In this document: in pieces, positions 1 to 58,306 of the stretch | Numbering within the stretch: position 1 is the first letter of the stretch | How the letters are laid out: each line of letters starts with the position of its first letter | NCBI GenBank assembly: GCA_027563935.2 | Contig: CM050451.1 | Span: 30,705,565 to 30,769,564 of the forward strand | DNA from: Costus lasius | Lineage: Eukaryota; Streptophyta; Magnoliopsida; Zingiberales; Costaceae | DNA length: 64,000 nucleotides | Direction of reading: 5' to 3' | The notes under the pieces: model-generated | What the model saw: only the letters and a program-made list of their open reading frames with translations | Told to the model about the DNA's origin: nothing | Databases searched by the model: none | Made by a program: the position numbers and the translations under genes

Positions 1-1021
1 GGCAAAGGATACATGTATGCCTTGTGAAGTGGATTCACACTTGTGCTATGGTTTGGGTGTAGTCTTGGAAGACTATTTCCTTTATATCGGGAGACAGTGA
101 TGTGTTGCTAGATACCCCTCACTGATCGTGATAATGTAAGTTATCGTTACCGACATTTAAAGGAAACCCTTAGGGTCGCACAATTTGATGATATGGCTTA
201 CTTGAGTCAGATCGTGTGGACTGAATTGTTTGGGTTCAGTTTAAAGGAGTTTAAACTCTGATTGTAAGTGAGATCCAGTCTAATCATGTTTGATTGATTA
301 GGGCTTGAGATCGGTAAGCTTCGATCGAGAGAGATGATGCTAGATCGGTGAGATCAAGAGCATCATGAGATGAACGGTTAGATTGGAAACCTTAGGGTTC
401 AGTTGATCTAGACCGATTGGCTTGGGCTGGCTTGGTTTGGCCTTTGGACCGAACACATTTACTTTGAACCGGTTCAAGAGCTTGAACGTATGGTTCATTG
501 TTTTGGCGTTTTGATCGATTTAGTGATCATGAACGCATGGCTTAATGGATTTTCCAATTTTGGAAAGTCATTTAGCGCATGTTCCCTTGAACGCCAAATG
601 ACTTGAACGCTCCATTCAACTCTCGTCTCCTTGCTCTTGCTTGACGAGACTTTGGCGTGGAGAAGGCGAGGTCTTGGTGGAGGTTCGGCAAGCCTAGACA
701 TCATCTCTCATTTCCTTACCATACGAGAGGGACCCTTGAAGGACCTTGCTAGCACAAGGATCTCCAAGGAGCAAGCACATCATCTTGTGTGCGTCAACTA
801 GGGAGAAGATCCCTTTCGATCTTTCTCTTCCAAGTCGCCATCTTCCTCATGGCTTTGGTATGGATCTAAACTTCATCAAGTTGATCATATTACATTGCTA
901 AGATCCATGAAAAACCCTTGCTTCCGCTTGTAATTTTTTATGCGCCACCCTTAAGGGTTTTTCGCCCCCCTCTTGAAAGGGGTTTCATCTGCTTGCGCTC
1001 CCCCTTGAAGGGGACTCTTCA
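1..1021 (+). repeat. 5' LTR of element A (3' part only)
   Basis: This matches 7415-8435 at a fixed offset and ends in CTTCA directly before the PBS. The last 60 bases contain two C-run/G-run stem-loops, the second at 1000-1013. A conserved GCTAGCACAAG ... CTTGTGTGCG inverted pair lies at 748-793, just upstream of the predicted mini-exon. Confidence 0.95.
849..857 (+). other. Predicted coding mini-exon in the LTR of A (Met-Ala-Leu)
   Basis: ATG GCT TTG is followed directly by a GT donor (GTATGG, 858). Joined to the acceptor at 2799-2800 it runs in frame through seven codons (2801-2821) into the gag ATG at 2822. The same ATG-GC arrangement followed by GTATG or GTAAAG is present in C, D, G, H and I. 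Splicing is predicted from sequence only. Confidence 0.55.
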
Positions 1022-1023
1022 AT

Positions 1024-1035
1024 TGGTATCAGAGC
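1024..1035 (+). other. Primer binding site of A (initiator-Met tRNA)
   Basis: TGGTATCAGAGC is the standard plant copia PBS, complementary to the 3' end of initiator Met-tRNA. It starts two bases after the LTR end. Confidence 0.95.
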
Positions 1036-2821
1036 ATGCGGTCCAAGCATGTAATATGATTGCTTGGTATATTTTGTGATCCTTGGTTGCGCATTTACAT
1101 GTATGCTTAGATCTTGTTGACATGCGAAACTTACATGTTATTTCTTCATGCGAAAGTAAGATGTTTACCTTATGTTGGCGCATGTTGTTTGTTCATCTTG
1201 TCGCATGTCTTGTGTTGGCGCTTAGTTCATGTTATTTTATCAAAAACCTAACATGCGCGCCTATGACTAGATCTAAGTGGCGCCTACTATAAACCCTTAG
1301 ATGGGTTGATGGGGTTGAAGTCACCTCTAGGTTAGATCCAATAGTCTGATCAGACCATCTGACAGCCGAGATGGATCGACCAGATGGCACCTGTGCGCAA
1401 GAACGAGGTGGCTATAGGTCGATTGCATCTTAGGCGTATAGCGAGGTCTGGTTGAGACAACCATTGAACACACATGAGTTAGGCCCGGGGTCACACCCGC
1501 TTGCCAGACCTCATGAGGGTTGTTCAGCCCTTGGCGCATGCATGGTTGACCATTAGGTCAACTCGAGTCAGTTAGGACTTGGTGCATGCAAGGGGCAGAG
1601 GATCTGACTAGATGAATGAGTGGATCCCTATCAATGGACCATTGTAAGGTTGTAGGGCACATAAGAAAATTAAAATTGATGCCAATGGGGTTTTCAAAAT
1701 TTATTTTCTTTTAATTGGATCACATGTTGTTTGATGCCTATGCTTGTTTATTTATTCTTATGTGGGCTGCCCATGTTAAATGTGTGTTGTGCTGGGGCCT
1801 GCGTGCCTGGAATTAAACCTGTAAATTAATATTATTGTGATCTGCGAATCACTTTTTAATTAATTTATTGTATAATTGACCTGCGAGTCAAACTTGTCTA
1901 GATAGATCAAAATGTATTTTGATTAGACAAGAGCACAAAGGCACACATCCCAGAGGGGCATTCAGCTGGTGGCGCACCTGAGGTGCTCTTGGCGCAAGGG
2001 CCCTGGGTTGGACCAGATGAGATGCTAAAGACCCAAGAAGAGCAAGTGAAGACTTAAGTATCTTAAGGTCTTACTTAGGCTATGGGCTTTTACCACATAA
2101 GATGCATGCTTTCTTTTATTGTTTAAATAAGTAGAACAGCATGATTTATTTATCTTCTGCTATAGCCATAGGATTTGCCTGATAGTAAGAAGATAAAAGA
2201 CCGTTAAAATCCAAACGCTAAAATATCAAGCACGTAATGCCTTCTGACGCGAAACCTCACTGTTCTGACTATCGTTGGAGCCGTGTTGTACCCACTCAGT
2301 GGGCACGTCCATCTATCTTCAGACGGTGTGGGATTACACCTGCGTGTTACAGAGTAGGGATTTATCCCTTCTCGTTGCTCAGCATAACACGTGGTGGTCC
2401 AGGGAGTAGGTCGGGTCAGCTTGACCATGTAGGCTGCATATGTGGCGCATATGGCAGCACATGGAGGCAGCCATCTGTGGGATCAGAGACTGTGTTGTAC
2501 CAACTCAGTTGGCACAGTCTGCTGGATTGCCCAGATGAAGGGGAATCGCACGGGTTGGCGATTGGCAAGGACTGCCTACCAGAAATTAGTGCTTGTACTC
2601 TCTGTGCATCTTATCTCGCCTGAGCGGGACGCGGAGACCAAGTATGAAATCTGGATCCCATCTCACTAAAAGAGTGTTACTCTTTCGGACTGTTTTATGG
2701 ATTTTACAGTCAGCTAAAATAGTGAGAAAAAGAATCTTTCTTAAGTCCTGGATTGATTCTATACATTGATACTGACCTTGCTGTTCTTGCATTGTTGTAG
2801 ATTCCTGCAGCAACGAACACC
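1036..2821 (+). other. Long 5' leader of A
   Basis: About 1.8 kb separates the PBS from gag. The first half is AT-rich, with many upstream ATGs. The second half (about 2240-2680) is strongly conserved among A, C, D, H and I. It contains stem-loops at 2291-2303, 2433-2458, 2500-2512 and 2614-2629. An open frame of about 128 codons (2237-2623) overlaps these structures. Leaders of this size are known in BARE-like elements. Confidence 0.85.
2291..2629 (+). other. Conserved RNA stem-loop cluster in leader of A
   Basis: Hairpin 1 (2291-2303) pairs CCCAC with GTGGG around loop TCA. Hairpin 2 (2500-2512) pairs CCAAC with GTTGG around TCA. Hairpin 3 (2614-2629) pairs TCTCGC with GCGGGA around CTGA. 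A longer stem at 2433-2458 pairs ten bases with one bulged G. Equivalent stems in the E/F family use different bases but keep the pairing. A packaging or dimerisation role is inferred. Confidence 0.6.
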
Positions 2822-5800
2822 ATGAGCTTCAATGTGCGATCCCTACTGGAAAGGGAGAAGTTTGCTGGGCCAAACTTCTCAGACTGGTTCGGACACCTTA
2901 AGATCGTTCTTAAGGCAGAGAGGAAACTGTATGTCCTCGAGACGGCTGTGCCGCCTCAACCCGCTGCGAACGCCGCAAGGGCGGTTCGTGATGCTTATGA
3001 AAAGCACGTCAATGATAGCATTGATGTCGCTTGCCTGATGCTAGCGTCTATGACGCCACCGCTGCAGCGTCAGCATGAGGATATGTCGGCTATAGAAATT
3101 ATAGCTAACCTCAAGATGTTGTATGCTGCACAGGCGAGGACAGAACGCTATAATCTGACAAAGCTTTTCTTTCAGAGCAAACTGGCTGAAGGGAGCCCAG
3201 TGGGAGCTCACGTGCTCAAGATGATTGGGCACAAGGAGGCTCTGGAGAAACTGGGGCATACCATCAACCAGGAGCTTGCTGTAGACATTATTCTGCAGTC
3301 TCTCCCGCCCTCTTTCGATGCGTTCATTATTAATTTTAATATGAACAAGATCGATTGTACTCCGGCAGAGCTGCTGAATATGCTCTTGACAACTGAGGAG
3401 ACTCTGAAGGGAAAGCCTTCAACCTCTGTCTTAATGGTTCCTTCTAGGAACAAGAAGAAGGGGAAGAAGGGCAAAGCCCCTGTCAAGAACTACAGTAAGG
3501 CTCTGAAACAAAAGGTTAAGCGGTCGAAGGACAACAGGTGTTTCCACTGTGGCCAGCTGGGTCACTGGAAAAAGGACTGTAAAGCGCTCCAAGGAGATAA
3601 GAGGGGAAGCATCGCTTCTGGCTCAGGTATATATGTGACTGAGGTCATGTTATCTTCTTCTTCTATTTCATGGGTGTTGGACACTGCATGTGGAGTTCAC
3701 ATTTGTTCAAATGTGCAGGAACTCAAGAGAAGAAGGCAGGTGGGACAGCATGAGGTAGACCTACGCGTTGGAAACGGGGCACGGGTTGCTGCTGTTGCTG
3801 TAGGAGACTATTTTATTTCTTTACCATCTGGCATTGTATTGGAATTAAACAATTGTTATTTTGTACCCAGTATAACCAAGAATATTATCTCTATTCCTGC
3901 TCTTGTCAGGAAAGGATTTGCCTTTGAATGCAATATTTCAAAGTGTGTACTTTCTCTTGATAATATTGTTTATTCTACTGGTTCAATTAACAATGGGTTA
4001 TTCATGTTGGACATGGAATATTCTATACAAAACATTGATAATAAGAAAGCCAAGTTTGCTGAAGACAGCACCTTGTTATGGCATAGTCGTTTAGGCCATA
4101 TTAACAAGAAGCGCATTAAGTGGTTGCATGATCATGGACTGCTGGGATCATTCTCCTATGAGGAGATTGATACATGCAAAGCTTGTTTGATGGGTAAAAT
4201 GACGAAGTCACCTTTTCCTAACAAAGGTCAAAGGGCTTCAGGTTTACTTGACCTTATACACAGTGATGTGTGTGGGCCATTTAGTAAACATGCCAGAGGT
4301 GACTATCAGTACTTCATTACCTTTACTGATGATTTCAGTAGGTATGGTTATGTCTATCTAATGAGACATAAGAGTGAATCCTTTGACAAGTTCAAAGAGT
4401 TCAAAAATGAAGTACAGAATCAGCTAGGGCGAAATATCAAGGCACTTCGTTCTGATCGAGGTGGAGAATACTTGAGTCATGCGTTTACTGACTATCTAAA
4501 AGAGTGTGGGATTATCTCACAGCTCACTCCGCCAGGAACACCGCAATGGAATGGTGTGTCCGAGAGGAGAAATAGAACGTTACTTGATATGGTTCGTTCT
4601 ATGATGAGTCAGGCTACTCTTCCATATTCCTTTTGGGGATTTGCACTGGAAACAGCTGCAAAGGTACTAAACCGAGTGCCATCCAAGGCCGTTTCAAAGA
4701 CGCCATATGAATTATGGTATGGGAAACAGCCGAGCTTGACATTTATCAGGATCTGGGGTTGCGAGGCTTATGTCAAAAAGCTCGCCTCTGGGAAACTGGA
4801 GAACAGATCTAAGAAATGCGTCTTTGTCGGTTACCCTAAGGAAACTAAGGGTTATTATTTCTACGATCCCAAAGAGAACAAAGTATTTGTTGCTCGGACG
4901 GCCATATTTCTTGAGAAGGAGTTTCTTCTGCAAGAAGCCAGTGGGAGAGAAATAAAGCTGGATGAGAATCCAGAGGAAGGACAAAGTAGTCAAGCACAGT
5001 TGGATGAGCCTGAGCCGGTGGATCAGGTTATTGAACAACCTGAGGCTCAGATATCACGGGAACCGCGAAGATCGGGAAGGATCCGTCGTCAGCCTGAGCG
5101 CTATGACGGAGTCTACATCATTGATAATGATGAACCCCTTACTTATGCGGATGCGGTCAGTGGACCGGAGTCAGCTAGATGGCTTGAAGCTATGTGAGCC
5201 GAGATGGACTCCATGTCAGATAACCAAGTCTGGGATTTGGTTGATCCGCCTCCGGGAGTAATCCCTATAGGCTGTAAATGGATCTTCAAGAAGAAGATTG
5301 ACATGGATGGTAACGTAGTTACCTATAAAGGCAGGCTAGTTGCGAAAGGTTTCAAACAAATCTACGGGATAGATTATGATGAAACTTTCTCTCCTGTAGC
5401 CATGTTCAAGTCTATTCGGATTCTTTTCGCGATAGCAGCATATTACGATTATGAGATCTGGCAGATGGATGTGAAAACAGCTTTCCTTAATGGAAATCTG
5501 GATGAGGATGTGTATATGACACAACCTGAAGGTTTCACTAATCCATCAGATCGTCATAAAATATGCAAACTAAAGAAGTCCATTTATGGACTGAAACAAG
5601 CATCTAGAAGCTAGAATATTCGTTTTGATGAATCAATCTCTGAGTTTGGTTTCATCAAGAACGAAGATGACCCGTGTGTATATAAGAGGTTTAGTGGGAG
5701 CGTGATTACATTCCTAGTCCTCTACGTCGATGACATCTTGATCATTGGAAATGATATTCCAGAAATGCATGCGGTTAAGGCATGGCTAAGGAAATGTTTC

Positions 5801-10088: not shown

Positions 10089-11777
10089 TGTTGGGGTATG
10101 CCCTTAAGACTAATGTTTGAGGTCTTGGGATTGTAACAGTATCATGTAATAAACTGTTATGTTTATAAAGGCATGGTTGTTATTCAGTAAGCTACATTGT
10201 CTGCTACAATATATGTTCTTCTGAATAATGTCTCAAAGCTGTTCAGCTAGGCTGACATGCAGTTATGTCCTTAGTCGAGATATCTTGGTGAACATGAGAC
10301 AGCCTTGATATGGTTAAGACTAATATGTGTTCTAATCTTATAGGATGCTTCGAGCATGGAATAAGATGTAGACTCATGGGTACATTGGATGTACTGGACA
10401 GACCCTACTTGGATATTCAATTGCTTGTCACAATGTGAATAATCCTTGAATGCGACAAGTGGCACATTTCCTCTGACTTGAGATCACTTGTGTTTTCTAA
10501 ATGATGATTGTCATTATTTTGAGATAGTTCAATATCACTTGAAATATAATGATTATAGACTATCTTGGATGGTGAGCTTGAGTCAGGTTAGGGCACTAGT
10601 GATAGACATAGGATTGCCGTCTCCTTAATTGGAGTGTGATGTTCTAAAGGGGCCCCCTGGATGAGATGATTGAGAAAGTGTATGGCCATACCCAGGTGAC
10701 TATGTTCATCTGATCTAATCATGCTCATCATATTGGAGTTACAAGCTTGACTTGCTTGTCCAATAAGAACATCCAGTGGTAAAGGAAATTTGTATGCTTT
10801 GTGAATTGATTCACACTTGTGCTGTTTTTGGGTGTAGTCTTGGAAGACTCTTTCCTTTATATCGGGAGACAGTGATGTGTTGCTAGATACCCCTCACTGA
10901 TCGTGATAACGTAAGTTATCGTTACCGACATTTAAAGGAAACCCTTAGGGTCGCACAATTTGATGATATGGCTTTCTTAAGTCAGATCGTGTGGACTGAA
11001 TTATTCGGGTTCAGTTTAAAGGGATTTAATCTCTGATTGTAAGTGAGATCTGGTCTGATCATGTTTGATTGATTAGGGCTTGAGATTGGTAAGCTTCGAT
11101 TGAGAGAATGAATGCTAGATCAGTCAGATCAGGAGCATTGAGAGATTGACGGTCAAATCAAGAGCCTTAGGGTTTATTTTGATCTGGACTTATTTCTTGG
11201 TTTATTTGGTTAGTGGACCAAATCGGTTTGAACCAGCTCATGGATGAGCGCATGGTTCAAAGGTGATGTGGCATTTGCGATTGGGGTAAACCCAAGATCG
11301 CATGTGGAGAAGTGGGATGCTATTTTTGGATAGCACTTCTCAAACGTGGCCATGATCTCACGTCGCCCCTCTCTTGCCTCTTCACGCCTTTGACGCCTCC
11401 TTGGGTTGTGTTCGAGTGGCATTCTCGTGTAGAGGAAGTCTAAGGCGACAAGAGAGAAAAACGCCAAGAAGAAAAGCTCTCCTTTCCCTTTGCATTCGAT
11501 CAAGACGCTTTGGACGATCCTTGCTAGCACAAGGGACGACAAGAAGAAGCACATCTTCATCTTGTGTGTGACGATTTGGAGGAGATCTTCATTGTTCTCT
11601 TACTTCCAAGGCGCCATCTTGAAATGGCCATGGTATGAATCGAATCACTTCTTTACAATCGGTTTTGTTAAGTTGATCATATAATGCATGCTCATTGATC
11701 CTATGAAACCCTTTATCCGCTGCCCCCTTTCTTGTTTGCGCCACTATAGGGTTTTCGCCCCCTTTGGGGAACCATCA
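10089..11777 (+). repeat. 5' LTR of element C (1689 bp)
   Basis: It begins TGTTGGGGTATGCCC and ends ACCATCA before the PBS. The terminal stem-loop (11758-11769) pairs CCCC with GGGG around TTT. The mini-exon ATG GCC ATG is at 11624-11632, followed by the GTATGA donor. Confidence 0.97.
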
Positions 11778-13581: not shown

Positions 13582-13602
13582 ATACCTGCAGCAACGAACA
13601 CC
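11792..13602 (+). other. 5' leader of C
   Basis: It is collinear with the leaders of D and A. It carries the same hairpin cluster between about 13075 and 13410, with the 10-bp stem in its GCTAC/GTAGC form. It ends with the conserved branch point, pyrimidine tract and AG before gag. No other gene is present. Confidence 0.85.
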
Positions 13603-16294: not shown

Positions 16295-16303
16295 ATGGCT
16301 ATG
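16295..16303 (+). other. Predicted coding mini-exon in D (Met-Ala-Met)
   Basis: ATG GCT ATG is followed by GTATGG (donor GT 16304-16305). Spliced to 18239 it continues in frame for seven codons to the gag ATG at 18260. Confidence 0.55.
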
Positions 16304-16441
16304 GTATGGTTCTATCTCATCTATGCAATCGGTTTTGTTAATCATATAACATGAAAGATCCTAAGAAGCCCTCTCCGCTGCGTTCTCCCTTAATATGCGC
16401 CTCACTTGGGTTTCGCCCCCCCTTATCTGGGGACCTTCAAT

Positions 16442-16452: not shown

Positions 16453-18259
16453 GCATAGGTTAACACATGTTTTATGATTGCATGAGCCATTTTTGTGATT
16501 CATGTTGCAGATCTTTATTACATGCGCATATACATGTTTAGTTATCATGAACGATACTTGTATTTTTCATCTTGGCGCATGTAAGATGGCGCATTATTTT
16601 TGTTGTTGTTTTTACAAAACGATGATAACATGCGCGACTCACTATAGATCTGAGGCCCTGCTATAAACCCTTAGATGGGTTATTAGGGTTGAAGTCACCC
16701 CCTAGGTTAGATCCAAACAGTCTGATCAGACTATCTGACAGCCTGAATGGGTCGACCAGATAGCACCTTGGCGCAAGCCTATGGTGGCTATAGGTCGACT
16801 GCAGACAGGTGTGTAGCGATGTCTGATTGAGACAACAGATGAACACACATGAGTTAGGCCCGGGGTCACACCCGCTTGCCAGACCTCATTGTGGTTGTTC
16901 AGCCCTGGCGCATGCATGGTTGACCTTATGGTCGACTCAAGTCAGTTAGGACTTGGTGCATGCTAGGGCAGTGGATCTGACTAGGTTGGATGAGTGGATC
17001 CCTGGTAATAGACCGTTGTAAGGTTGAAGGGCAAATAAGGAAATTAAAATTGATCCCATGGGGTTTTTCGAAAATTTTAATTTTTATGGATCACATGATT
17101 GCTGATTGGATGCATATGTTTGTTTATTTAGTCTTGTGTGGGCTGCCCATATTAATTGTGTGCTGTGCTGGGGCCTGTGTGCCTGGGATTTAAAAGTGTA
17201 AATTAATTATTGTGATCTGCGCATCACATTGCTTTAATTTATAAAATGTAATTGACCTGCGTGTCAATTTTGTCTAGATAGTTAAATTTGTAATTTAATT
17301 AGACAAGAGCACAGAGCACACTTGGCAGAGGCGCATGCAGCTGTGGCTGGACCAGGTGGGAGGTCTAGGGTTCGACCCTAGGACCTGGCGCATTTCCCTG
17401 GTGGGCGCACCAAAGCTGCAATTGGCGCTTGGGCCCTGGCTTGGGCCAGATGAGCAGCAAAAGACCCATGAAGAGCAAGTGAAGACTTAAGTTAGGTTAA
17501 GGTCTCGCTAGGGCTATGGGCTTTTACCACATAAGATTCATGCTTTCTTTTATTTATTGTTTAAATATTAGAACTGCATGATTAAGTTTATCTTCTGCTA
17601 TCACCATAGGAATTGTATGATAGTGAAGAAGATAAAAGACCGTGAAAATCCAACGCTTAATATCAAGCTCATAAAGCCTTCTGACGCGAAACCTCACTGT
17701 TCTGATTATCGTTGGAGCCGTGTTGTACCCACTCAGTGGGCACGTCCATCTATCTTCAGAGGGTGTGGGATTACACCTGTGTGTTACAGAGTAGGGATTT
17801 ATCCCTTCTCGTTGCTCAGCATAGCACATGGTGGTCCAGGGAGTAGGTTGGGTCAGCTTGACCATGAAGGCTACATATGTGGCGCATATGGTAGCACATG
17901 GAGGCAGCCATCTGTGGGGTCAGAGACTGTGTTGTACCAACTCAGTTGGCACAGTCTGCTGGATTGCCCAGATGAAGGGGAATCGCATGGGTTGGCGATC
18001 GGCAGGGAATGCCTACCGGAGATTAGTGCTTGTACTCTCTGTGCATCTTATCTCGCCTGAGCGGGACGCGGAGACCAAGTATGAAATCCGGATCCCATCT
18101 CACTAAAAGAGTACTACTCTTTCGGGCTGTTTTGCTGGATTTTTCAGCCAGATAAAATAGTGAGAAAAGGAATCTTTCTTAAGTCCTGATTGATTCTTAA
18201 ACATTGATACTGACCTTGCTGTTCTTGCATTGTTGTAGATACCTGCAGCAACGAACACC
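16453..18259 (+). other. 5' leader of D
   Basis: It is collinear with A and C, with no gene other than a leader open frame (about 17677-18060). Conserved structures are at 17728-17740, 17870-17895, 17937-17949 and 18051-18066. The gag ATG context is ACCATGA. Confidence 0.85.
17728..18066 (+). other. Conserved RNA stem-loop cluster in leader of D
   Basis: It has the same three short hairpins as A. The longer stem at 17870-17895 uses GCTAC/GTAGC where A uses GCTGC/GCAGC, a paired change that keeps the helix. The function is unknown; genomic RNA packaging or dimerisation is the likely guess. Confidence 0.6.
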
Positions 18260-30164: not shown

Positions 30165-32116
30165 TGTTGGTGTGTATGCCCTAGGACCTAGTTTTGGTCA
30201 ACTTATGTACTACTTCACATTGATATTTATATATATCATTCTGGCATTGTCGTTATCATTGTTTGTCTACACCTGCGATTGTGTACTTACATGATAATGT
30301 CCCTGGAGACAGATTAGATCTGTGCTCAAATAATTGTCCCCAGTCGATGTACCTGAGTGGATATGGGACAGCTCTGGTACTTGAGAGACTGGTATGTGGG
30401 CTGGTTAGGCACGTGGTGCTAACGCAGACACATGGGTATATCATTGGAGGATATACTGGATAGATCCGCTATGAGGCTATGACTTGGTGTCATGAGTTAT
30501 CCTCATAAGTGACAGGAGATGCATTGATCCCTTGACTTGAGGTCATTGATCATTCCATATGGCTAGGGACTTGCTTTGATACAACCCAATACCTTGCCGT
30601 AGTTGGGAGGTCATAACGGTTGTCATTGAGCATGTCACGACCCATATGAGAAGGTCAATGGACAGACATAGGATTTGCCCCTTCTTTAGGGAAGTATGAT
30701 ATCCATGGAGCTCCTCTATGGTTCTATGACTGAAAGTGTATGGCCATACCTAGGTGAGAACCTATTTTAGTCATAGCCATGTGATTGGATGAAAACAAGT
30801 GGTGACACACTTGTCCAATCGGATATCAGTTCGACAAAGAGACTGTAATGCATCTGTACCTAGTTGCGATGATGGGGATGTCGATGTCGATATCCATTCC
30901 AATGACCTGGGTAGCAGCGATGCACTGCTAGGTGCCACTCACTGCTTGTGATGACCTTTGGTCAGCACTGCCAGCGTCAGAGGAACCTACAGGGTCGCAC
31001 ACCTTGATACTTGAGTTCTTGTATTGATCGGGAAGCCTTATGATCGAGTTATTGGATAACTCGGATCTAATTGGGAGATTTCGTCAGCGCCAATGAGCCT
31101 GATGAGATGGAAGAATATTATTGGAGCCAAACTTCATTTTTGGCAGGTTGACCCGTATTTGACCATGGTTGGTCACATTTGGATTAGGATTGCATTGGAT
31201 TGGATCTAAGTGCTTAATCAACCCATGTAATGGAGTTTGGGCTAGCTCATTATCCAATGAGGCCCAATAATAAGTTGTCATGAAGAGAAGAAAGGCTAAA
31301 AGGGTATAATGGGGACAAATCTTCTCCCCTAGGCGCCTATGGGCATAATGGGGAGAAGTGGCGCAATTTGCTTCATAAGGAAGCAATTGGCGCCTCCCCC
31401 TTAATCCCTTATGGTATGAATGCCTCTATGGCATTACTTGGGGCGCAAGGCAAGGCCTTGGCGCACAAAGAAAGACATGGGCTCTAAAAGGAATGGTTGA
31501 ATGAGAATTATGAAAATGTCTTGGAGACTTTCCTTGTCTCAAACCTTCTCATCCTAGCCGCCCACTTGTCTTGATCCTAGCCTTTCATGAACCGCCTCTT
31601 GCCCTATAAAAGAGCACCTAGCCGAGCCCTCCAAGTGTGATCAATTCTTGAAGGCGTGAACACAAGAAGAGGGGCGAGTGCTAGGAGCAAGGGCGCATCT
31701 TCCTTCTTCCATAACCGCAAGCCTCTCCCTCCTTTCCTCTTGGCGCAAGGAGCTTTAGTGCTTGGCGGCTTGGGTAGTTTCCCTCTTCCCTTGGCGCATC
31801 TTTTCTCTTGGTGGCGCAAGTGAAGTAGAACATCTTCTTAAGGCTTGGATCTTCTTCCCGAGGCTAGCACCGGGCGTGGAAGAAGAGAACTCAAGAGATC
31901 CGTGTGTGTGAGACTGCAGAGGGCGCACACTTGGGCACCTACATCGGCATCACTCCAAATTGCTCTTAAGGTATTTCCTAATTCATCGTGTCGACTCCCT
32001 TGCTTGCAATCTTCACTGGTTTTTGGGACCGGCCTGTTTCGGGGACATTCTTCCGCTGCGTAATATGTATGTCTATGACTCTGAAAATTGTAAAATGTCC
32101 CCGGGGTTTCCCAACA
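30165..32116 (+). repeat. 5' LTR of element E (1952 bp)
   Basis: It runs from TGTTGGTGTGTATGCCC to CCCAACA before the PBS. It shares blocks with F's LTR, such as the stretch around 31110-31150. Near its end CCCCGGGG (32099-32106) replaces the C/G stem-loop of the other family. An AAG/GTATTT donor-like site is at 31970. Confidence 0.9.
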
Positions 32117-33403: not shown

Positions 33404-35627
33404 TGTTGGTGTATATGCCCTAAAGACCAATGTATGGACATGGTCAGGCATTGTTTGAATGTACTTTGATAGAACTATTACTCTTTATATAGGCATGGTC
33501 GTTATTATGCAGACTTCTCTACCTGCGTTGATGTATTGAGTTGCATAAATAATGTCCCAGGAGTTTGGATTGGATCCATTCTCATAAGCTATCCCCAGAC
33601 AAGGTACCTTAGCAGATATGGGACAGCTTTGGTACATGTGAGACTGGTGTATGGGCTGGTTAGGTGCGGGGCACAGTAACGCAGACATACAGGTGCATTG
33701 GATGCACTGGAGTGATCCACTGTGAGGATTGACTTGTCTAGTCAACAAGTCAATCTCACATGCAAGAGGTTTGCATTGATCCTTAGACTTGAGGTATTCA
33801 TGTCTAGATTTGATGATGGGTATGCTTTAATACAGTCTTACGTCTCTCCGTAACTGGGAGATCAAAACGACTGTCATTGGGCATGTCATAAGTCATGTAG
33901 AGACATGAATGACCAATAGTAGGATTTGCCCCTTCCTTATTGGAAGCATGATATCCACTCGGGGCGCCCCACCTTATTGGTGCATGACAGGAAAGTGTGG
34001 CCACACTTGTTGAGTCATGACCAATGCATTGGATAATAAACTTAAGACTAATCCAATGGTAGGATATCAGCTTAGGCAAAGGGATCTGTAATGCAATAGG
34101 AATCCTCGTTGCTTGTTAGGAGTTGTTGCCATAATGACTTAAGTCCTATGACATGGGTAGTAGTGATGTGTTGCTAGATACCCCTCACTATTTATGATGT
34201 TTACATCATTGCCATCGTCATATGGATCCTACGGGGTCACACGCAATAGACTCTTGACGTTGCTTTATTCAGAAGCCTTCGGATCAAGTTATTGGATAAC
34301 TTGGATCCATTTGGAAGATTTCATCAGCGCCAATGGGCCTGATGAGTTGGAAGAAAGTTATTGGAGCCAAACTTCATTTTTGGCAGGTTGACCCGAAATT
34401 GACCTAGATTGGTCACATTTGGATTAGGGTTGCATTGGATTAGATCCAATGGCTTAATCAACCCATGCCATGAAGTTTGGGCTAGCTCATTATCCAATGA
34501 GGCCCAATAATTAGTTCTCATGAAGAAGAATTGGCTTAAAAGGGTATAATTGGGAGAAATCTCACCCCATTGGCGCCTAGGGGCATAATGGGGTGAGGGA
34601 GGCGCCTTTGCTTCATTATGGAAGTAAAGGGCGCCTAGCCCTTCTTCCTTGGATGGAATACTTGCCTCTAAGGTAAGTCTTGGGGCTGATATGGCTTGAG
34701 AACTTTTATGGGAAGTTCCTAGGCGCATATGGACATAGGGAAGAGGTATATGGTAATGTCTTGGAGACTTACCTTACCTCAAACCCTAGTTTCTCCCAAA
34801 ACCCTTACCCTAGCCGAAACTCCTCATGCATGTTGCGCCTAGCCACTTAGCCTTTGATGGTAAGAATGCATTTGAGGCATGTCTTGGGCTGATATAGTGT
34901 TTATACTTTTATGGATAGGTTGAATGAGGTTTATGGTAAAGTCTTGGAGACTTTCCTTACTTCAAGACACCTCATCCTAGCCATACACTTGGCATGATCC
35001 TAGCCCTTGCTCAAACCACCTCTAGTCCTATTTATAGGACCCATTGTCGCCCTCTCTAGATGATGAACGCTTGGAGACGTGAACACAAGTAGAGGGGCGA
35101 AAGCAAGGGCAAAGGGTGACAACATCAAAGTGGCGCAACCCTTCTTCCAACAAGTGACCGCAAGTCTTCTCCTTCCTCTCCTCTTGGCGTGACTTGGAGA
35201 AGGACTTGGTGGCGCAATTTCCCCCTAATCTTCCTCAAGGCCGAAACTCATCTTCTCCCTCTTCTCTTGGAGTGAAGAGGATAAGGAGTTGGCGGCATCT
35301 TCCTTGCACTTGGCGCATGAACCTTGGAGGTGGCGCAAGAAGAGTGAAGGAACCCTAAGGCTCGATTCTCTTCCCGAGGCTACCACCGAGCGTGGAAGGG
35401 GGCAACGATCAAGGAGTCGACGCGTGGATACTTGTAGAGGGCGAACACTTGGGCGCCTTCAACATGGCTTCGACATCTAAACAAGCAAAAGAGGTACATC
35501 TCTAACACATCCTTGTGTCTTCTCTCTCGCATGGATCCTTGGGAAAGGAATGTGTTTCGGGTGTAATGCTTCTTCCGCTGCGTCCTGGGACTGCAAAATT
35601 TTAAATTACACCCGGCATTCCCTAACA
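33404..35627 (+). repeat. 5' LTR of element F (2224 bp)
   Basis: It runs from TGTTGGTGTATATGCCC to CCCTAACA. It holds a ten-codon predicted exon at 35464-35493, followed by GTACAT. It belongs to the same family as E's LTR but is diverged. Confidence 0.95.
35464..35493 (+). other. Predicted coding exon in F's LTR (ten codons)
   Basis: The frame reads MASTSKQAKE and ends exactly at a GT donor (35494). Spliced to 37137 it continues in frame into KASPDLRLKLYKHK, the start of F's gag, which has no ATG near its beginning. Confidence 0.55.
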
Positions 35628-35628
35628 G

Positions 35629-35640
35629 TGGTATCAGAGC
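35629..35640 (+). other. Primer binding site of F
   Basis: TGGTATCAGAGC, one base after the LTR end. Confidence 0.95.
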
Positions 35641-37136
35641 TACTTGCAAGAAACACAAGGTGTACATTTGCTTGTGTGAAAAATTTTTGGAAAATTTTTC
35701 GTTCATCCATGCGCGTTTAACCTAGAAGGCGCTTTCATCCAAACTTCTTTCATCAATTTTTATGGCCGAAATTTGGATTGTGTTTATGATGGATTTAAGA
35801 CCAAAGGCGCACGTAGTTTTGTCAAGTAGGACAGGCATTGTGTCTTCGGACTGGCCAGGTCTCTTGATCTGACAAAATTGCCAGCCGATAGGGTCCATGA
35901 AATCATCATGAAACTTGATCCCAATTTTAGCATAAATTTGATAAAGAGAGTGCTTTGGATGGAGTTGGCGCATAAGGGGATAAAATTTGATTATTACGGT
36001 TTTTCAAATTTTATATATGCGCCACTTGTCTCTTTCATGGGTTGATATGGTCATAGCGAGTGCCCTCCTGTGTTGTGATGTGGAAGCATGTTTCCACCTG
36101 TGACGAATGCTTGTAAAATCTTTCTACCACCTGCGTGTGGTTCTCCCCTTCTTGATGAAAAATTTTCATCTTTCCTTAGAATAGATGTAGAATTGTTTAC
36201 ATGAGATAGGTTAAGGTTCATCAAAGACAACAAGGTGTCTTCTTCAACCGATATCAGAGTGGCGCCAGCTTTGGAAGCTTGGTGATGGACTTGCGGCTGA
36301 AGGAAGGACACTAGCTTTCGGCTTCTGGCATGGGCTGATTTGCTTCAGGGACTCGCAACCCTTGGATGCACAATAACATGTCACATGGCTCGTGACAAGT
36401 TATGTATATGAAAAGGGCTATGACCATATCGACCAAAATAGCATGCCTGTGATGGTTTATTATTTTGTCCATAGCATGCCTGTGATGTTTTTCCTTGCTG
36501 CCATAACCATAGGAAAACTGCATGCTAGAAATGAATAAAACAAACATGCAAAAACTCTCAATTCAATATCAAGTCGATAGCCTTCTAACGCGTAGCCCTC
36601 ATCAAACTATCGATCAGTGGTGTTGTGAACTATTTCCCACCCTCGTGGGACACACCCACTTATCTTTAGAAGATGTGTGGTGACAATGATTTCCCTAGTC
36701 CAGTTTTAACCTGGACGTGCCTTCGCAAGGAAATTTGTTGGCCCTGGGCATAACGGTTAGGACCAGACTTGACTGGTTTTTCATATGTCATTGACATGAT
36801 GAATTACTAGAGGCAACTGTTGAGAGGATAGGGTTTTGTGTTGTATCCAGCCCTCGCTGGACATAGGACGCCTAGTCTGTCTTAACTAAGAGGAATTGTG
36901 CATGGCACAATTGGCTGGCATGCCTACCTAAGGAAGCATGAGACTCTCTGTGCATCTCAACTCACCCTCGTGAGTCGCGGAGACCTTATGTGAAATTAGG
37001 ATCCTACTCACTCATCTCCATGTTGAGTTAGAGAGTTCTCAACTTGTTTTGGAAGTAGTGGGAGCATAGCATTTAATTTAAAGTCCTTGTTAAATGCTTT
37101 ATCATTGTACTTACTTTACTTATTTGCTTATTGTAG
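35641..37136 (+). other. 5' leader of F
   Basis: It is a noncoding leader of about 1.5 kb. Three hairpins are followed by the acceptor block. The middle and right parts align with E's leader at 33220-33403 and 42644-43036. Confidence 0.8.
36635..36975 (+). other. RNA stem-loop triplet in leader of F
   Basis: Three six-pair stems share loop CCTC: TCCCAC/GTGGGA (36635-36650), TCCAGC/GCTGGA (36846-36861) and ACTCAC/GTGAGT (36960-36975). Loop and layout stay constant while stem bases vary. The third occupies the same place as TCTCGC/GCGGGA in the A family and TCCCAC/GTGGGA in E. Confidence 0.6.
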
Positions 37137-40400: not shown

Positions 40401-40414
40401 TGCAAGTGGGAGAT
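40400..40414 (+). other. Polypurine tract of F
   Basis: GCAAGTGGGAGAT next to the 3' LTR. It is preserved although the coding region is not, as expected for a cis-acting site. Confidence 0.9.
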
Positions 40415-42643: not shown

Positions 42644-43040
42644 CGGTTAGGAATGGACTTGACTAGAAGATCACATGTGCTGGGCACATGGTGAAAGTCT
42701 AGAGGCATCGTTGAGAGGTAAAGGTTTCATGTTGTATCCAGCCCTCGCTGGACATGAAATGCCCAGACTGTCTCGACAAGGGGAGTTGCTTGGAGCAACC
42801 GGCCGGCGCGCCCACCTTAGGAAACATGGGTTACTTTATGCATCTCATCCCACCCTCGTGGGACGCGAAGCCTCATGTGAAATAAGGATCCCATCTCACT
42901 AGGAAGTCTTAAACTTCTCGATTGACTTTGTGGGTTGTCAATTCGAATTTAAAATAGTGAGAGTAGTAATAATTTAAAACAAGTCCAGTTTAAATGATTC
43001 GAAGTAGTACTAATCTGTTCTTCTTGGGTGTTGTAGAACA
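42644..43040 (+). other. 5' leader of E, right part, with acceptor site
   Basis: Hairpins are at 42737-42752 (TCCAGC/GCTGGA, loop CCTC) and 42848-42863 (TCCCAC/GTGGGA, loop CCTC). A TACTAAT branch-like motif and TTGTAG (ending 43036) lie just before the gag ATG at 43041. Confidence 0.75.
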
Positions 43041-46000
43041 ATGGCTACGAACACTGGCGGATTATCACTGCGATCACTCCTTGATAAGGATAAGTTTGTT
43101 GGAACTAACTTTATGGACTGGCATCGGAACTTGAGGATAGTCCTAAAGCTCGAGAAGAAGTTGTATGTCCTTGAACAGCCTCTTCCTGCGGCTCCTCCGC
43201 CTAATGCCCTAATGGCAGACAGAGATGCTTATAGAAAGCATCAGGATGATTCTTTGGAGGTTGCATGTCTTATGCTAGCCAGCATGGCACCTGAACTGCA
43301 GGTGCAATATGAGGAGCATAACGCTTTTCAGATGATCACTCGTCTGAAACAGATATTCGAGGCTCAGGCTAGAACTGAGAGATTTGACACCACTAAAGCA
43401 GTCTTTCGGTGCAAGTTGTCTGAGGGTGCACCAGTGAGACCTCATGTTCTCAAACTCATTGGGAACGTGGATCATCTCAGGAGACTGGGACACACCATAG
43501 ACAACGAGCTGGTTGTGGATCTTATTTTGCATTCCCTGCCCCCTAGCTTCAGTCCGTTTATTATTAACTTCAACATGAACCGGATTGAGTGCACACGGGA
43601 GGAATTGATGAATATGCTCCAAACAGCCGACCGAGAGATGGGTAAGACCAAACCCAATTCTGTTCTTTTGGTCCCTGCGACCAAGAAGATAAAGAAGAAG
43701 GGTAAGGCACGTGCTAAGAGCAGTGCCAGAGGTCCTACCAAAGCACTGAAGAAAAAGGCGAAGAAGTCAAAGGACCAGAGGTGTTTTCACTGTGGCGAGC
43801 AGGGTCACTGGAGAAGGGACTGCAAGCTGCTTCAGAATGAGGAGAAGAAAGGCTTGGCTTTAACTTCTAGCTCAGGTATCTATGTTACAGAAGTCAATCT
43901 TTCTACTTCTATGTCATGGGTATTGGATACCGCATGTGGAGCTCATATTTGTACAAATATCCAGGGGCTCAAGAAAAGTAGATCGGTGTGGCTTGGAGAG
44001 ATTAACCTACGCGTTGGAAACGGGGCACAGGTTGCTGCTGTTGCTGTAGGCATTTTGACTCTCTCCTTGCCTTCTGGACTTCGATTAGAACTAGATAATT
44101 GCTTTTGTGTACCTTCACTTACTAAGAACATTGTATCCATTCCTTGCTTAGCAAGGAAAGGATTTAAATTTGAAATAAATAAGAACTCCTGTTCTTTTTC
44201 ATTTGCAAATATGTTCTATGGGAAGGGTACTTTGTGCAATGGTCTATATATCTTGGATATGGAAAGTTCTATTTGTAACATAAGTAATAAAAGGACCAAA
44301 CTGAGTGGTTCAGTTGGTGCTTTCCTATGGCACTGTCGATTAGCCCATATAAACAAGAATCGCATCCAACAACTCCATGCAAATGGATTGTTAGATTCGA
44401 GTTCCTTGGAGGAATTTGATACTTATGAACCTTGTTTATTAGGGAAAATGACAAAGGCACCCTTCACCAAGATTGGTGAGAGGGCAAAAGGTTTATTAGA
44501 TCTCATACATACTGATGTGTGTGGGCCCTTCAATAAACAAGCCAGAGGAGGGTACAACTACTTCATTACCTTCACTGATGACTTCAGTAGGTATGGCTAT
44601 GTCTACTTAATGAGACATAAATCTGAATCCTTTGGGAAATTCAAGGAGATCAAGAATGAAGTAGAGAACCAGCTTGGAAGATCCATTAAAGCTCTTCGAT
44701 CAGATCGAGGTGGAGAATACCTGAGCGGTGAGTTCTTTGACTATCTGAGAGAGTGTGGGATCATATCCCAACTCACTCCTCCTGGAACACCTCAATGGAA
44801 TGGTGTGTCTGAAAGAAGAAATCAAACTTTATTGGATATGGTTCGATCTATGATGAGTCATGCAACTCTACCTTCATCATTCTGGGGGCATGCACTAGAA
44901 ACAGCTTCTCTGATACTGAATAATGTTCCATCTAAGAGTGTCTCCAAAATACCATACGAGATGTGGAGTGGGAGACGCCCTAATCTCACTTTTATCAAGA
45001 TCTGGGGATGTGAGGCTTTTGTCAAACGTTAGGATTCTAGTAAGTTAGAACCTAGATCTGATAAATGTGTGTTTGTGGGGTATCCTAAGGAAACTAAAGG
45101 ATACTACTTCTATGTCCCAACCGAGAACAAAATTTTTGTTGCTCGGGGTGTTGTCTTTCTAGAGAAAGAATTTCTTATGAAAGAAGTTAGTGGGAGGAAG
45201 TTTGACTTGGATGAGGTTGAAGTGCAAGCACAAGACCAAGAGATGGAATCTGAGCCACCTGCACCGGTTGCTAGGCAACCTGAGGCTCAGACACAGGTCC
45301 CGCGTAGGTCTGGGAGAATTCGTCGTGCACCTAAAAGGTATGGGTCGCTACCGACCCAACACGATGGGATCTTCATCATTGAGGATTAACCCAGAACCTA
45401 TGATGAGGCGGTCAGTGGACCGGACTCTGAGAGATGGCTTGACGCCATGCGATCCAAGATGGATTCCATGTCGGCTAACCAAGTCTGGGATTTGGTTGAG
45501 CTGCCTGATGGGGTAAAACCCATAGGGTGTAAATGGGTCTTCAAGAAGAATACAGACATGGATGGCAAAATAGTTACCTATAAGGGTAGACTAGTGGCTA
45601 AAGGATTTAAACAAGTCCATGGGGTGGACTATGATGAAACCTTCTCGCCAGTTGCCATGATCAAGTCCATTCGGATTCTGCTTGCTATAGCTGCGTATCA
45701 TGACTATGAGATATGGCAGATGGATGTGAAGATAGCGTTCCTTAATGGGAAGCTAACTGAGGATGTGTATATGTCACAACCTGATGGCTTCATCCATCCT
45801 GCAGAGGCTAATAAGGTCTGCAGGGTAAAGAGGTCCATTTATGGATTAAAGCTAGCATCTCGAAGTTGGAATCTTCGATTTGATGAAGCCGTGAGAGATT
45901 ATGGCTTTATCAAAAGCGAAGATGACGCCTATGTATACAGAAAATTCAGTGGGAGCTTGGTGATTTTTCTAGTTTGTATGTTGATGACATACTGCTCATC

Positions 46001-46919: not shown

Positions 46920-47640
46920 TGAAAGTCCCCTTCAAGGGGGAGCGCAAGGGGGTGAAACCCTAAATAGGGGGCGCATGAAAAATTTCTAGGGTTTCAACTA
47001 GATCGATTGCATGAACTCATATATGATCAACTTTGATATTATTTCAAAGATCAGGTTTAGATCCTTTACCATAGCCATGATGAAGGAGGCGGCTTGGAAG
47101 AGAAAGAACCAAATGCTTCTTCTCCAAAGGTACCGCACACAAGAAGAGAGATGGCTTCTTCTTGTTGATCTTTGTGCTAGCAAAGATCTTCAAGTGTCCT
47201 TGCCGAATGGAAGGGATGGGAGATGAGATCTTGGTTGGCCGAGAGCTCCACTTGTTCATCCACCTCTTCTCCACACGAAAAAAATGCAAGAAGCCAAGTG
47301 AAGATCAATCATCCACACTTACCACATGGAGGCATTTTCGGTTTTTTTCAACATAGAAAACCGCCTTCCACAAATGGTAAGTGTTAATGGCTCATGCGTT
47401 CACTCCAAGTGAACGCTCGAAACTTCCTCTAATTGAACCAAGCGTTCACCTAGTGAACCGGTTCAATTAGATTTGGTTCAAAACCCCAATTAAGCCAAAC
47501 CACTTGGTCTAGATCATATTAAACCCTAAGGTTCCAGATCTAACCGTTCATCTCCTGATGCTCCTGATCTCACCGATCTAGCATCATCTCTCTCGATCGA
47601 AGCTTACCGATCTCAAGCCCTAATCAATCAAACATGATCA
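46920..47640 (-). repeat. Element G: end of an A-family LTR, minus orientation
   Basis: The reverse complement ends GGGGACTTTCA, after a CCCCCTTGAAGGGG stem-loop like A's LTR end. Further in it has the mini-exon ATG GCT ATG followed by GTAAAGG, and the GCTAGCACAA/CTTGTGTGCGG pair. It is cut at 47640 by H; the rest of G should lie right of the window. Confidence 0.9.
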
Positions 47641-55218: not shown

Positions 55219-56601
55219 CGTCGCCATCTCTTGGATGGTATCTTGGAAGAAGAAAGCAAGAGAGATCTCCTCCAAAGGTTGTCGCACACAAGAGGAAGAA
55301 GGCCTACTTCTTTGGGGCGATTTGTGCTAGCAATGCTCCAAAGCTTCCTTGATCGTTTGAGGGACGAAGAGATGAAAACTTGGCCGAATCCTCTTGTCGT
55401 CAACCTTCACGCCACCAGCCGTGAGTCGTCCAATGCCAAGAGCGAATTAGCGAGAGGAATAGAGAGGAGGCGTTGCAAGTGAACGTGGAAACGTTCCCAC
55501 GTTGAAAACCGAAAGTTCCCAAAATAGCAAGCCTTGATTACATGCGTTATGCGTTCACCAAGTGAACCATGCGCAACTCTCTTCTCCCACCTGAACCTTG
55601 TGCTCAACCCATGAGCCAGTTCAAGATGTTTGGTTCAATGACCAAACCAAATCAGCCCAAACATTAAGTCTAGATCGAATTAGACCCTAAGGTCCTAGAT
55701 CTGACCATTCATCTCCAGATGCTTCTGATCTGATCGATCTAGCATCAACACCCTCGATCGAAGCTTACCGATCTCAAGCCCTAATCAATCAAACATGATC
55801 AGACCAGATCTCACTTACAATCAGAGTTTAAATCCCTTTAAACTGAACCGAAATAATTCAGTCCACACGATCTGACTTAAGTAAGCCATATCATCAAATT
55901 GTGCGACCCTGAGGGTTTCCTTTAAATGTCGGTAATGATAACTTACGTTATCACGATCAGTGAGGGGTATCTAGCAACACATCACTGTCTCCCGATATAA
56001 AGGAAAGAGTCTTCCAAGACTACACCCAAAACACAGCTCAAGTGTGAATCCTTTTCACTAGGCTTCACTAGGCATACATATTTCCTTTGCCACTGGATGT
56101 TCTTATTGGACAAGCGTGTCAAGCTTGTAGCTCCAATATGATGAGCATGATTAGACCAGATGAACACAGTCACCTGGGTATGGCCATACACTTTCTCAAT
56201 CATCTCAGCCGGGGGGGCCCCTTTAGAACACCACACTCCTTAAACAAGGAGACGGCAATCCTATATCTATCACTAGTGCCCTAACCTGACTCATGATCAT
56301 TATCCAAGATAGTCTATGACCATTATCTTTCAAATGATATTGAACTACCTCAAAACAATGACAATCATCATTTAGAAACACAAGTGATCTCAAGTCAGAG
56401 GAGATGTGCCACTTGTAGCAAACAAGGATTATTCACATTGTGACAAGCAAGTGAATATCCTAGTAGGGTCTGTCCAGTACATCCAATGTACCCATGAGTC
56501 TACATCTTATTCCATGCTCGAAGCATCCTATAAGATTAGAACACATATTAGTCTCAAGCATATCAAGGCTGTCTCAAGTTCACCAAGATATCTCGACTAA
56601 G
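55075..56601 (-). repeat. 5' LTR of element H (first about 180 bases displaced by I)
   Basis: It matches 47641-49167 with about seven substitutions (for example near 55422, 55700, 55855 and 56451). The LTR's own 5' end is separated by the insertion of I after CTAAG and lies beyond the window. Confidence 0.95.
56597..56601. repeat. Presumed left target-site duplication of I (CTAAG)
   Basis: The five bases before I's TGTTGGGG belong to H's LTR; the partner lies outside the window. Confidence 0.5.
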
Positions 56602-58306
56602 TGTTGGGGTATGCCCTTAAGGCTAATGTTTGAGGCCTTGGGATTATAAACTGTATCATGTAATAAACTGGTATGTTTATAAAAGGCATGGTTATTATTC
56701 AGGTTGTTACCTTGTCTGCTGTAATAAGTGTACTTCTGAATAATGTCTCAAAGCTGTTCAGCTGGGCTGACATGCTCTTTGTCCTTAGTCGAGATATCTT
56801 GGTGAACTTGAGACAGCCTTGATATGATTGAGACTAATATGAGTGCTAATCTTATAGGATGCTTCGAGCATGGAATAAGATGTAGACTCATGGGTACATT
56901 GGATGTACTGGACAGACCCTACTGGGATATTCCATTGCTTGTCACAATGTGAATGATCCTTGTAAGCACTAAGTGGCACATGTCCTTTGACTTGAGATCA
57001 CTTGTGTTTCTAAATGATGATTGTCATTGTCTTGAGGTAGTTCAATATCATTTGAAACATAATGATTATAGACTATCTTGGATGGTGAGCTTGAGTCAGG
57101 TTAGGGCACTTGTGATAGATAAAGGATTGCCGTCTCCTTGTTCAAGGAGTGTGATGTTCTAAAGGGGCCCCCCTTGTATGAGATGATTGAGATAGTGTAT
57201 GGCCATACCCAGATGACTATGCTCATCTGATCTGATCATGCTCATCGTATTGGAGTTACAGGCTTGACATGCTTGTCCAATAAGAACATCCAGTGGCAAA
57301 GGAATCATGCATGCCTTGTGAGTTGGATTCACACTTGTGCTATGGTTTGGGAGTAGTCTTGGAAGACTCTTTCCTTTATATCGGGAGACAGTGATGTGTT
57401 GCTAGATACCCCTCACTAATCGTGATTACGTATGTTATCGTTACCGACATTTAGAGGAAACCCTCGGGGTCGCACAATTTGGTGATATGGCTTACTTGAG
57501 TCAGATCGTATGGACTGGATTCTTTGAGTTCAGATTAAAGGGATTTAATCTCTGATTGTAAGTGAGATCTGGTCTGATCATGTTTGATTGATTAGGGCTT
57601 GAGATCGGTAAGCTTCGATCGAGAGAGATGATGCTAGATCGGAGAGATCAGGGGCATCAGGAGATGAATGGTTAGATCATGAGCCTTGGGGTTCGATTTG
57701 GTCTAGACCAAGTGGCTTGAGCTATTTCGGTTTGGTTTGATGAACCAAATTCGATTGAACGATTTGGATTGAACCGGTTCACAAATGTGAACGCTTGGTT
57801 CAATGCCAATATGCGTTCTTGAAGTGGCTTGAACGCTTGGCTTGATTCTCTTCCACTTATGGAAAGTAATCAAAGCCGGTTATGCTTCAACGCCAAAACG
57901 CATAAGCGTTGGCTTCTTCACTACAACGCTCATCATCCTTTTCGTTGGGTGGTTGACGAAGGTGGAAAAGAAGCAAGAGAAGCTCTCGGCCAAGAAAGGG
58001 AATCATCTCATCATCCCTTCCATTCGACAAAAAGAAAAGCTTGGGTGTCTTGCTAGCACAAGGGACCGCAAGGAGTAAGCATCTTCATCTTGTGTGTGAA
58101 CTTGTGGAGGAGATCTAGTTTGTTCTCTTCATCCAAGCCGACTTCCAAGCATATGGCGTTGGTATGAATTTCCATCTCAATCTACTCAATCGGTTATAGT
58201 TGAACATATGGCATGCAAATGATCTTAAACCCTTGCTTCCGCTAGCATATTTTTCTTTAGCGCCATGCTTTAGGGTTTTTGCCCCCCCATTTTAGGGGTT
58301 TCTTCA
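56602..58306 (+). repeat. 5' LTR of element I (1705 bp)
   Basis: It runs from TGTTGGGGTATGCCC to TTTCTTCA. The terminal stem-loop (about 58285-58298) pairs CCCC with GGGG around ATTTTA. The mini-exon ATG GCG TTG is at 58153-58161, followed by GTATGA. Confidence 0.95.

Follow-up and report, generated by a model that had tools for sequence, protein, structure and literature searches.

A candidate Gag start codon in the long terminal repeat of an abundant Costus lasius Ty1/copia family, probably joined to gag by splicing of a leader intron

The stretch analysed here, referred to as the window, comprises 64,000 nucleotides (nt) of Costus lasius DNA (assembly GCA_027563935.2, contig CM050451.1, positions 30,705,565 to 30,769,564 of the forward strand) and contains several long terminal repeat (LTR) retrotransposons. 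Five of them (elements A, C, D, H and I) form what we call the first family, and their LTRs, together with one separate LTR fragment (fragment G, not to be confused with element G at 33404-42638), carry the nine bases ATG-GCN-NNG directly followed by GTA. This motif, as a candidate first exon of the Gag-Pol frame, is the subject of the present report. The family is assigned to Ty1/copia because of the domain order in element D, two pieces of which match the Pfam models Retrotran_gag_2, zf-CCHC, Pol_BBD, gag_pre-integrs and rve, then SH3_retrovirus and RVT_2; no Pfam model named protease matched in these two pieces. The LTRs run from TGTTGGGG to TTCA and are followed by the primer-binding site (PBS) TGGTATCAGAGC, which deviates at one position in element D and which we take to be a match to initiator-methionine tRNA. 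Element D sits nested inside element C, and 5-bp target duplications were recognized by eye for these two elements (AATAT for D, CATTA for C). The LTR pairs of A, C, D and H are 99.4-100% identical, and these insertions are therefore taken as recent. Fragment G lies on the minus strand around 46920-47640 and shares ~71% identity with the LTR of element A over 616 columns. The proposed exons of the first family and the signals between them are as follows.

849..857, plus strand: proposed exon 1 of element A (ATG GCT TTG) in the 5′ LTR; donor GTATG at 858; 3′ LTR copy at 8263
858..2800, plus strand: proposed leader intron of element A, 1943 nt, containing the LTR tail, the PBS and 53 ATGs
1024..1035, plus strand: primer-binding site TGGTATCAGAGC within the proposed intron of element A; the LTR ends at 1021
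2770..2800, plus strand: branch-point-like TACTGAC (2770-2776), pyrimidine tract and putative TTGTAG acceptor of element A
2801..2821, plus strand: proposed start of exon 2 of element A, codons I-P-A-A-T-N-T, kept as codons, 5′ of the apparent gag ATG
2822..2824, plus strand: apparent gag ATG of element A, codon 8 of exon 2
11624..11632, plus strand: proposed exon 1 of element C (ATG GCC ATG); donor at 11633; intron up to 13581
13582..13602, plus strand: proposed start of exon 2 of element C
16295..16303, plus strand: proposed exon 1 of element D (ATG GCT ATG); donor at 16304; intron up to 18238
18239..18259, plus strand: proposed start of exon 2 of element D
55219..55227, minus strand: proposed exon 1 of element H (ATG GCG ACG); donor at 55218; intron up to 53277; exon 2 from 53276
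58153..58161, plus strand: proposed exon 1 of element I (ATG GCG TTG); donor at 58162; intron up to 60192; exon 2 from 60193
47070..47078, minus strand: proposed exon 1 of LTR fragment G (ATG GCT ATG), ATGGCTATG followed by GTAAAG, at 47078

The sequence-only reading that preceded this work had placed the exon/donor pairs of the five elements, and all of its coordinates proved correct; the exon with GTAAAG that it had reported for fragment G was likewise found, at 47078 on the minus strand. The window holds nine sites of ATGGCNNNG followed by GTATG, located in both LTRs of A, C, D and H and in the single LTR of I in view (849, 11624, 16295, 55227 on the minus strand and 58153, with partner copies at 8263, 28157, 23712 and, on the minus strand, 47794). 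The TACTGAC-like site, the pyrimidine tract and the TTGTAG 21 nt before the gag ATG, also noted earlier, are present in all five elements, the last A of TACTGAC lying 25 nt before the intron end and the tract coming next. On a simple pyrimidine/TGYAG score made for this analysis, the acceptor comes out first among 145-156 AGs in four elements (C, D, H and, with a tie, I), and in A it is second of 145. Exon 1 and the acceptor are in phase in each of the five, in agreement with the in-frame joining proposed before, and the TAG at 2798-2800 of element A is an in-frame stop on unspliced RNA.

Conservation across genomic copies, a point the sequence-only reading had left to be checked, was assessed in the 1.279-Gb source genome with two LTR blocks located 5′ of the exon, so that the selection of copies was independent of the motif itself. 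The block pair occurs at 41,878 places, and a pair of reversed control blocks at none genome-wide. The exon with GTA lies 40-70 nt downstream in 39,648 of these (94.7%), a figure that mainly reflects abundance because copies of the same subfamily are young; the comparison between subfamilies is the better test. For the latter, 51 distinct LTR segments, picked by other blocks, were thinned to a non-redundant set of 36, in which all nine predicted sites, those of ATGGC, the final G of the exon and GTA, reach 2.00 bits. Values are lower at the alanine third base (0.21 bits), at the first two bases of codon 3 (0.72 and 1.32 bits) and at the five bases 5′ of the exon ATG (0.22-1.06 bits). The six LTR types of the window give the same picture, with ATGGC, the last exon G and GTA invariant and the three bases between them variable. 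The earlier statement that exon and donor are kept amid varying LTR sequence holds for these sites, but the LTR has further conserved blocks besides the exon; TTGCTAGCACAA and TCTTGTGTG, for example, are equally conserved and also invariant in the six window LTR types. Ranked among 318 12-mers, that of the exon comes 13th, behind 12 others at offsets -107 to -101 and -69 to -65 that lie on the two anchor blocks and are fixed by construction. With LTRs of roughly 1.7 kb and this number of block pairs, the first family must form a large part of the 1.28-Gb genome.

The exon ATG is also the first one in a long tract of the LTR. In 35 of 37 distinct fetched LTR segments, the first ATG after the blocks is that of ATGGCNNNGGTA. 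The ATG-free stretch before the exon measures 248-317 nt in the five window elements and 178 nt in fragment G, and that before the first ATG 190-331 nt in the 37 fetched segments; the earlier caveat of upstream ATGs is softened by these stretches. Among 69 GTs common to the five elements, the LTR donor is the one using the first ATG of the examined stretch, which was begun 240 nt upstream of the exon. The agreement in phase extends to 20 elements sampled by LTR, all of which show TTGTAG followed by a Gag frame in phase 0 with the LTR exon, and the donor GT is intact in 19 (L084 has GA). Intron lengths in these 20 fall into all three classes modulo 3, so that only removal of the intron links both frames in general; the length for L081 was counted from an extra ATG, and its correction leaves all three classes present.

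The start of exon 2 was compared in 31 copies, i.e. the 20 sampled elements, the five of the window and six of an ATG-less set described below. The gag ATG at codon 8 is missing in 6 of the 20 sampled elements, and over the 31 copies this codon is ATG in 19, ACA in 11 and ATA in one. The amino acids of codons 1 and 3-7 are constant in all 31 copies, codon 2 is proline in 26 and threonine in five, and codons 9, 10 and 12 vary as well. Genome-wide, the 21-base exon 2 start (three positions open) is followed by ATG at 22,562 places and by ACA at 3,519. In the 12 ATG-less copies among the 31, the first in-frame methionine is residue 50 or 80 in every case. A second ATG-less set of 30 copies, found via the junction pattern, is a non-random sample that favours one acceptor variant and overlaps the 12; codon 8 is here ACA in 28, ATA in one, ACG in one and ATG in none, an in-frame TAG stands directly 5′ of exon 2 in all 30, and the first in-frame methionine is residue 50 or 80 in 29. 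The LTRs fetched for this set carry the exon with GTA in six of six, with donors GTAAC, GTAAT and GTATGT whose U1 pairing (-5.0 to -8.1 kcal/mol) is stronger than that of 18 of the 20 sampled elements (-4.2 to -4.7 kcal/mol; L081 and L084 left aside).

Selection on gag was estimated from the ratio of nonsynonymous to synonymous substitution (dN/dS) over up to 170 codons in the 47 open copies of 57 (22 ATG-less, 25 with ATG), in pairs that are not independent of one another. The ratio is 0.14 for ATG-less pairs 2-6% apart and 0.18 for those more than 6% apart, and 0.09-0.12 for copies with the ATG; gag in ATG-less copies is under purifying selection that is less strict than in ATG copies. The apparent gag ATG is dispensable and very probably not the Gag start; the LTR exon is the best-conserved candidate start found. 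The proposal that the start codon lies in the LTR is in this respect supported, as the internal ATG is replaceable and the codons upstream of it are better conserved, with the splice as its putative connecting step. No database protein starting MA-x-IPAATNT was present among 66 and 46 matches, the top ones being 52% and 60% identical; another reaches 63% across two thirds of the query. A search of IMG/VR for possible relatives gave 30 pattern matches, none of them confirmed.

The combined results make it very probable that the Gag-Pol frame of this abundant Ty1/copia family starts in the LTR and is joined to gag by splicing of a leader intron of ~1.9-2.0 kb. In the model we propose, RNA polymerase II would transcribe from the LTR, and scanning ribosomes, having crossed a long stretch without AUG, would meet ATG-GCN-NNG first. 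The spliceosome would remove an intron of ~1.9-2.0 kb that extends from the GTA after the 9-nt coding exon to the TTGTAG at the leader end, and the frame of the LTR exon would then continue into I-P-A-A-T-N-T and the remainder of Gag-Pol. The spliced RNA would serve as mRNA; both the LTR end and the PBS fall inside the intron, so that this RNA could not be primed at the PBS. The unspliced RNA would be the sole RNA fit for reverse transcription and would hardly give complete Gag, given its 43-53 leader AUGs (the range of ATGs counted in A, C, D, H and I) and the in-frame TAG; with a donor of moderate strength, a fraction of the RNA would stay unspliced. On an extended version of the model, translation and replication would be mutually exclusive, the RNA for full Gag-Pol lacking the PBS and the copyable RNA lacking full Gag; each of the tens of thousands of LTRs would also be a portable promoter, start codon and donor module that could graft MA-x onto downstream host exons, and the upstream open reading frame (uORF) of the LTR might drive ribosome shunting on unspliced RNA, as does the uORF of Rice tungro bacilliform virus (RTBV). 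We regard this extension as evenly poised between right and wrong.

A second family in the window, comprising elements F and G, has a related arrangement with a different start. Element F is taken to be split by element G, and two of its regions are relevant here.

31604..31970, plus strand: LTR of element F with a TATA-box-like CTATAAAAGAG at 31604, a 337-nt ATG-free stretch and the donor-like AAG/GTATTT (GT at 31971)
43008..43043, plus strand: region taken as the interior of element F, with a branch-like TACTAAT at 43008, TTGTAG ending at 43036 and the gag ATG at 43041

The candidate intron of F holds 51 ATGs, and the gag ATG lies within exon 2. Its branch-like site and tract align with those of the first family, and TTGTAG is shifted by a few columns. 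The acceptor is followed by AACA-ATG-GCT-ACG-AAC-ACT, an acceptor-plus-start arrangement that is found at 1,423 places genome-wide. The ATG of F corresponds to GCA in the first family, and of the next codons GCT/GCA and ACT/ACC differ silently only. Many plant database relatives (Hibiscus and Gossypium among others) are annotated as starting near the exon 2 start, with MANNT-/MANNTNT-, MAANTNT- or MASNTPNN-. Element G, whose 2.2-kb LTRs are 99.3% identical and flanked by CATAA, is likely non-autonomous because no open reading frame of at least 200 amino acids lies between its LTRs; in its LTR, ATGGCTTCG begins a frame that stays open up to the donor-like GAG/GTACAT at 35494, with AGGTA at the donor in common with the LTR of F. 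The second family probably represents the earlier state of the first family's arrangement. On the simplest reading, an old leader intron would have gained a start codon in its LTR exon and lost that in exon 2, a direction that we infer.

Several observations weigh against a spliced LTR start. Judged by U1 pairing, the LTR donor has no more than moderate strength, holding rank 13-27 among 140-145 GTs, and its mean pairing energy is equalled or beaten by 12% of the other GTs in LTR segments. Agreement in phase is weak evidence taken alone, since 16 of the 69 shared GTs follow an open ATG frame in at least four of the five elements. Searched without mismatch, the source genome yielded no intronless copy with the spliced junction, a result that is expected if the spliced RNA lacks the PBS and equally fits no splicing; at up to two mismatches, 1,677 places were found, and the 100 of these that were listed all show the unspliced TAG. 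Individual LTRs deviate, as L081 has an additional ATG just upstream of an intact exon, the donor of L084 is altered, and L094 has an ATG only 60 nt upstream of the exon. The ATG-free stretch itself is suggestive only, as dinucleotide shuffles predict 1.5-3.0 ATGs and a probability of none of 0.02-0.16 per LTR. In each of the five elements of the first family, a TATA-like TATATCGGGA precedes the exon by 766-779 nt, far 5′ of the ATG-free stretch; if it is the TATA box, upstream ATGs would fall within the 5′ untranslated region (UTR). The LTR of element G has four ATGs before its donor, and both halves of the element A leader fold better than 20 dinucleotide shuffles each (z -5.5 and -4.9). The dN/dS of close ATG-less pairs is 0.52, vs 0.12 for close ATG pairs, so that some ATG-less copies may be relaxed or parasitic, and the wider ATG-less pairs may be partly older than the loss of the ATG. 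The transcription start, the splice itself and the division of labour between two RNAs are inferred from the DNA sequence.

The main rival, which we consider unlikely, is ribosome shunting on unspliced RNA. On this view, modelled on the plant pararetroviruses, the LTR mini-frame (MA-x-V-stop, often four codons) would be the uORF from which ribosomes shunt across a structured leader to land at its end. Gag would begin there either with codon 1 of exon 2, a near-cognate AUU or AUA, or with the internal AUG. The uORF has four codons in 24 of the 36 non-redundant LTRs, as it does in the sampled ATG-less L075, L076, L077, L083 and L086, but its length is not kept, spanning 6 to at least 38 codons in the other 12 and 6-32 codons in the six LTRs of the 30-copy ATG-less set. 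Codon 1 of exon 2 is ATT in 24 and ATA in seven of the 31 copies, and RTBV is reported to start its ORF I at AUU after a shunt (PMC5902531). The folding of the leader, seen in the one leader analysed, would suit a shunt, and packaging or dimerisation are further possible uses of the structure. Shunting leaves unexplained, however, why the final G of the exon and the GTA after it, even at the third position of a valine codon, are invariant in 36 of 36 LTRs, and why a branch-like site, tract and TTGTAG should stand at the leader end. The LTR of F, moreover, lacks any ATG in the 337 nt before its donor, although that of the related element G has four. By analogy with RTBV, where one uORF is described as serving both processes (PMC5902531), shunting and splicing may both operate here.

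A very unlikely alternative is an ordinary 5′-UTR intron, with this or another donor, combined with a Gag start at the internal ATG, the LTR ATG being a uORF or irrelevant. The 22,562 copies that have the internal ATG speak for it, as do the gag start of the second family, which does lie in exon 2, and the stronger U1 donors in the leaders, e.g. CAG/GTGGGA in C, D and H. The replacement of the internal ATG by ACA in 3,519 copies argues against it, together with the codons 5′ of that ATG, which are conserved better than the ATG itself, and the LTR ATG, which comes first after the blocks in 35 of 37 LTRs and is in phase in 20 of 20 elements. Located mid-leader, 1061-1079 nt after the exon ATG, the donor-like CAG/GTGGGA takes or shares first place by U1 match in C, D and H. 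In A and I it falls outside the first four, and it may supply an alternative exon. A CTATAAA around 1288 in the leader of element A, 3′ of the PBS, is a possible internal promoter.

It is also highly improbable, if compatible with a spliced LTR start, that the ATG-less copies are merely parasites that make no Gag, are packaged in trans and tell nothing about the Gag start. Such a case is on record in BARE2, which lost its gag start codon and is parasitic on BARE1 (PMC3735527), and the dN/dS of close ATG-less pairs fits it; the values of 0.14 and 0.18 in wider pairs do not, nor does the conservation of codons 1 and 3-7 in both groups or of the exon with GTA in six of six LTRs of the 30-copy set, and the conserved exon, donor and acceptor of the ATG copies are left unexplained. 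That the motif is kept for some other reason, be it a role in reverse transcription, in packaging or in the promoter, and looks like an exon by coincidence is extremely unlikely. Even though TTGCTAGCACAA and TCTTGTGTG are conserved as well, sites are free and fixed in the manner of codons followed by a donor, and such a role would explain neither the agreement in phase nor the matching acceptor nor why the internal ATG could be lost.

It has long been asked how retroelements divide one RNA between translation and reverse transcription. If the spliced LTR start is true, one excision step would both remove the PBS and create the reading frame, and the split would be written in the sequence. Annotation that places the Gag start at the internal ATG would then be wrong for the first family, and gene finders would miss the Gag start in ATG-less subfamilies. 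With ~42,000 LTR blocks in one genome, junction reads should be easy to look for. Two further observations concern the elements themselves. Element I starts precisely at the break of the 5′ LTR of H (56601/56602), into which it seems to have inserted. The closest solved structure by sequence to the gag of element A (2801-3640) is 8vvw, a copia virus-like particle protein that presumably derives from Drosophila (E 3e-5, residues 92-261).

The sequence-only reading knew of no description of the arrangement in plant copia elements, and in agreement with this, none with an LTR start codon spliced to gag was found in the entries and passages of open PMC papers that were searched (subscription papers and figures not covered). 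Partial likenesses exist outside plants. In yeast Ty1 the Gag start codon lies within the 5′ LTR, as proposed here, and no intron is known to separate it from gag, in contrast to the arrangement proposed for the present elements. In avian sarcoma/leukosis virus, splicing of the env mRNA equips another reading frame with a start codon and a few more codons from further upstream, but the donor exon is there the gag start, outside the LTR, and the product is env.

Plant LTR elements are generally intron-free, with exceptions that include Ogre and EVADE (EVD), as stated in a 2025 review (PMC12786077). In the copia elements BARE1 and EVD, RNA is spliced into a translatable form (PMC3735527, PMC12786077 and PMC7765848), and the first of these sources describes BARE with distinct RNA pools. 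As portrayed there, BARE1 and EVD have their intron in the gag/protease region, where it cuts Gag short without involving the start codon or the leader, whereas the intron proposed here lies in the leader. Ogre, a plant Ty3/gypsy element, requires a spliced intron for its polyprotein to be read (PMC6317226), but that intron separates GAG-PROT from RT-RH-INT and not the start codon from gag. A further parallel is the ORF IV mRNA of RTBV (Tungrovirus), for which PMC5902531 describes splicing that joins a donor-bearing leader uORF to a distal ORF and enables its translation. RTBV differs in being a pararetrovirus whose uORF lies in the leader and not in an LTR, and whose product is P4 and not Gag-Pol. 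The likeness is that of a reverse-transcribing plant element with a donor ending an upstream ORF and an in-frame distal acceptor, and the same layout can be read from the first family, where the putative donor and acceptor are in phase in five window and 20 genomic elements, with the donor GT intact in 19 of the 20.

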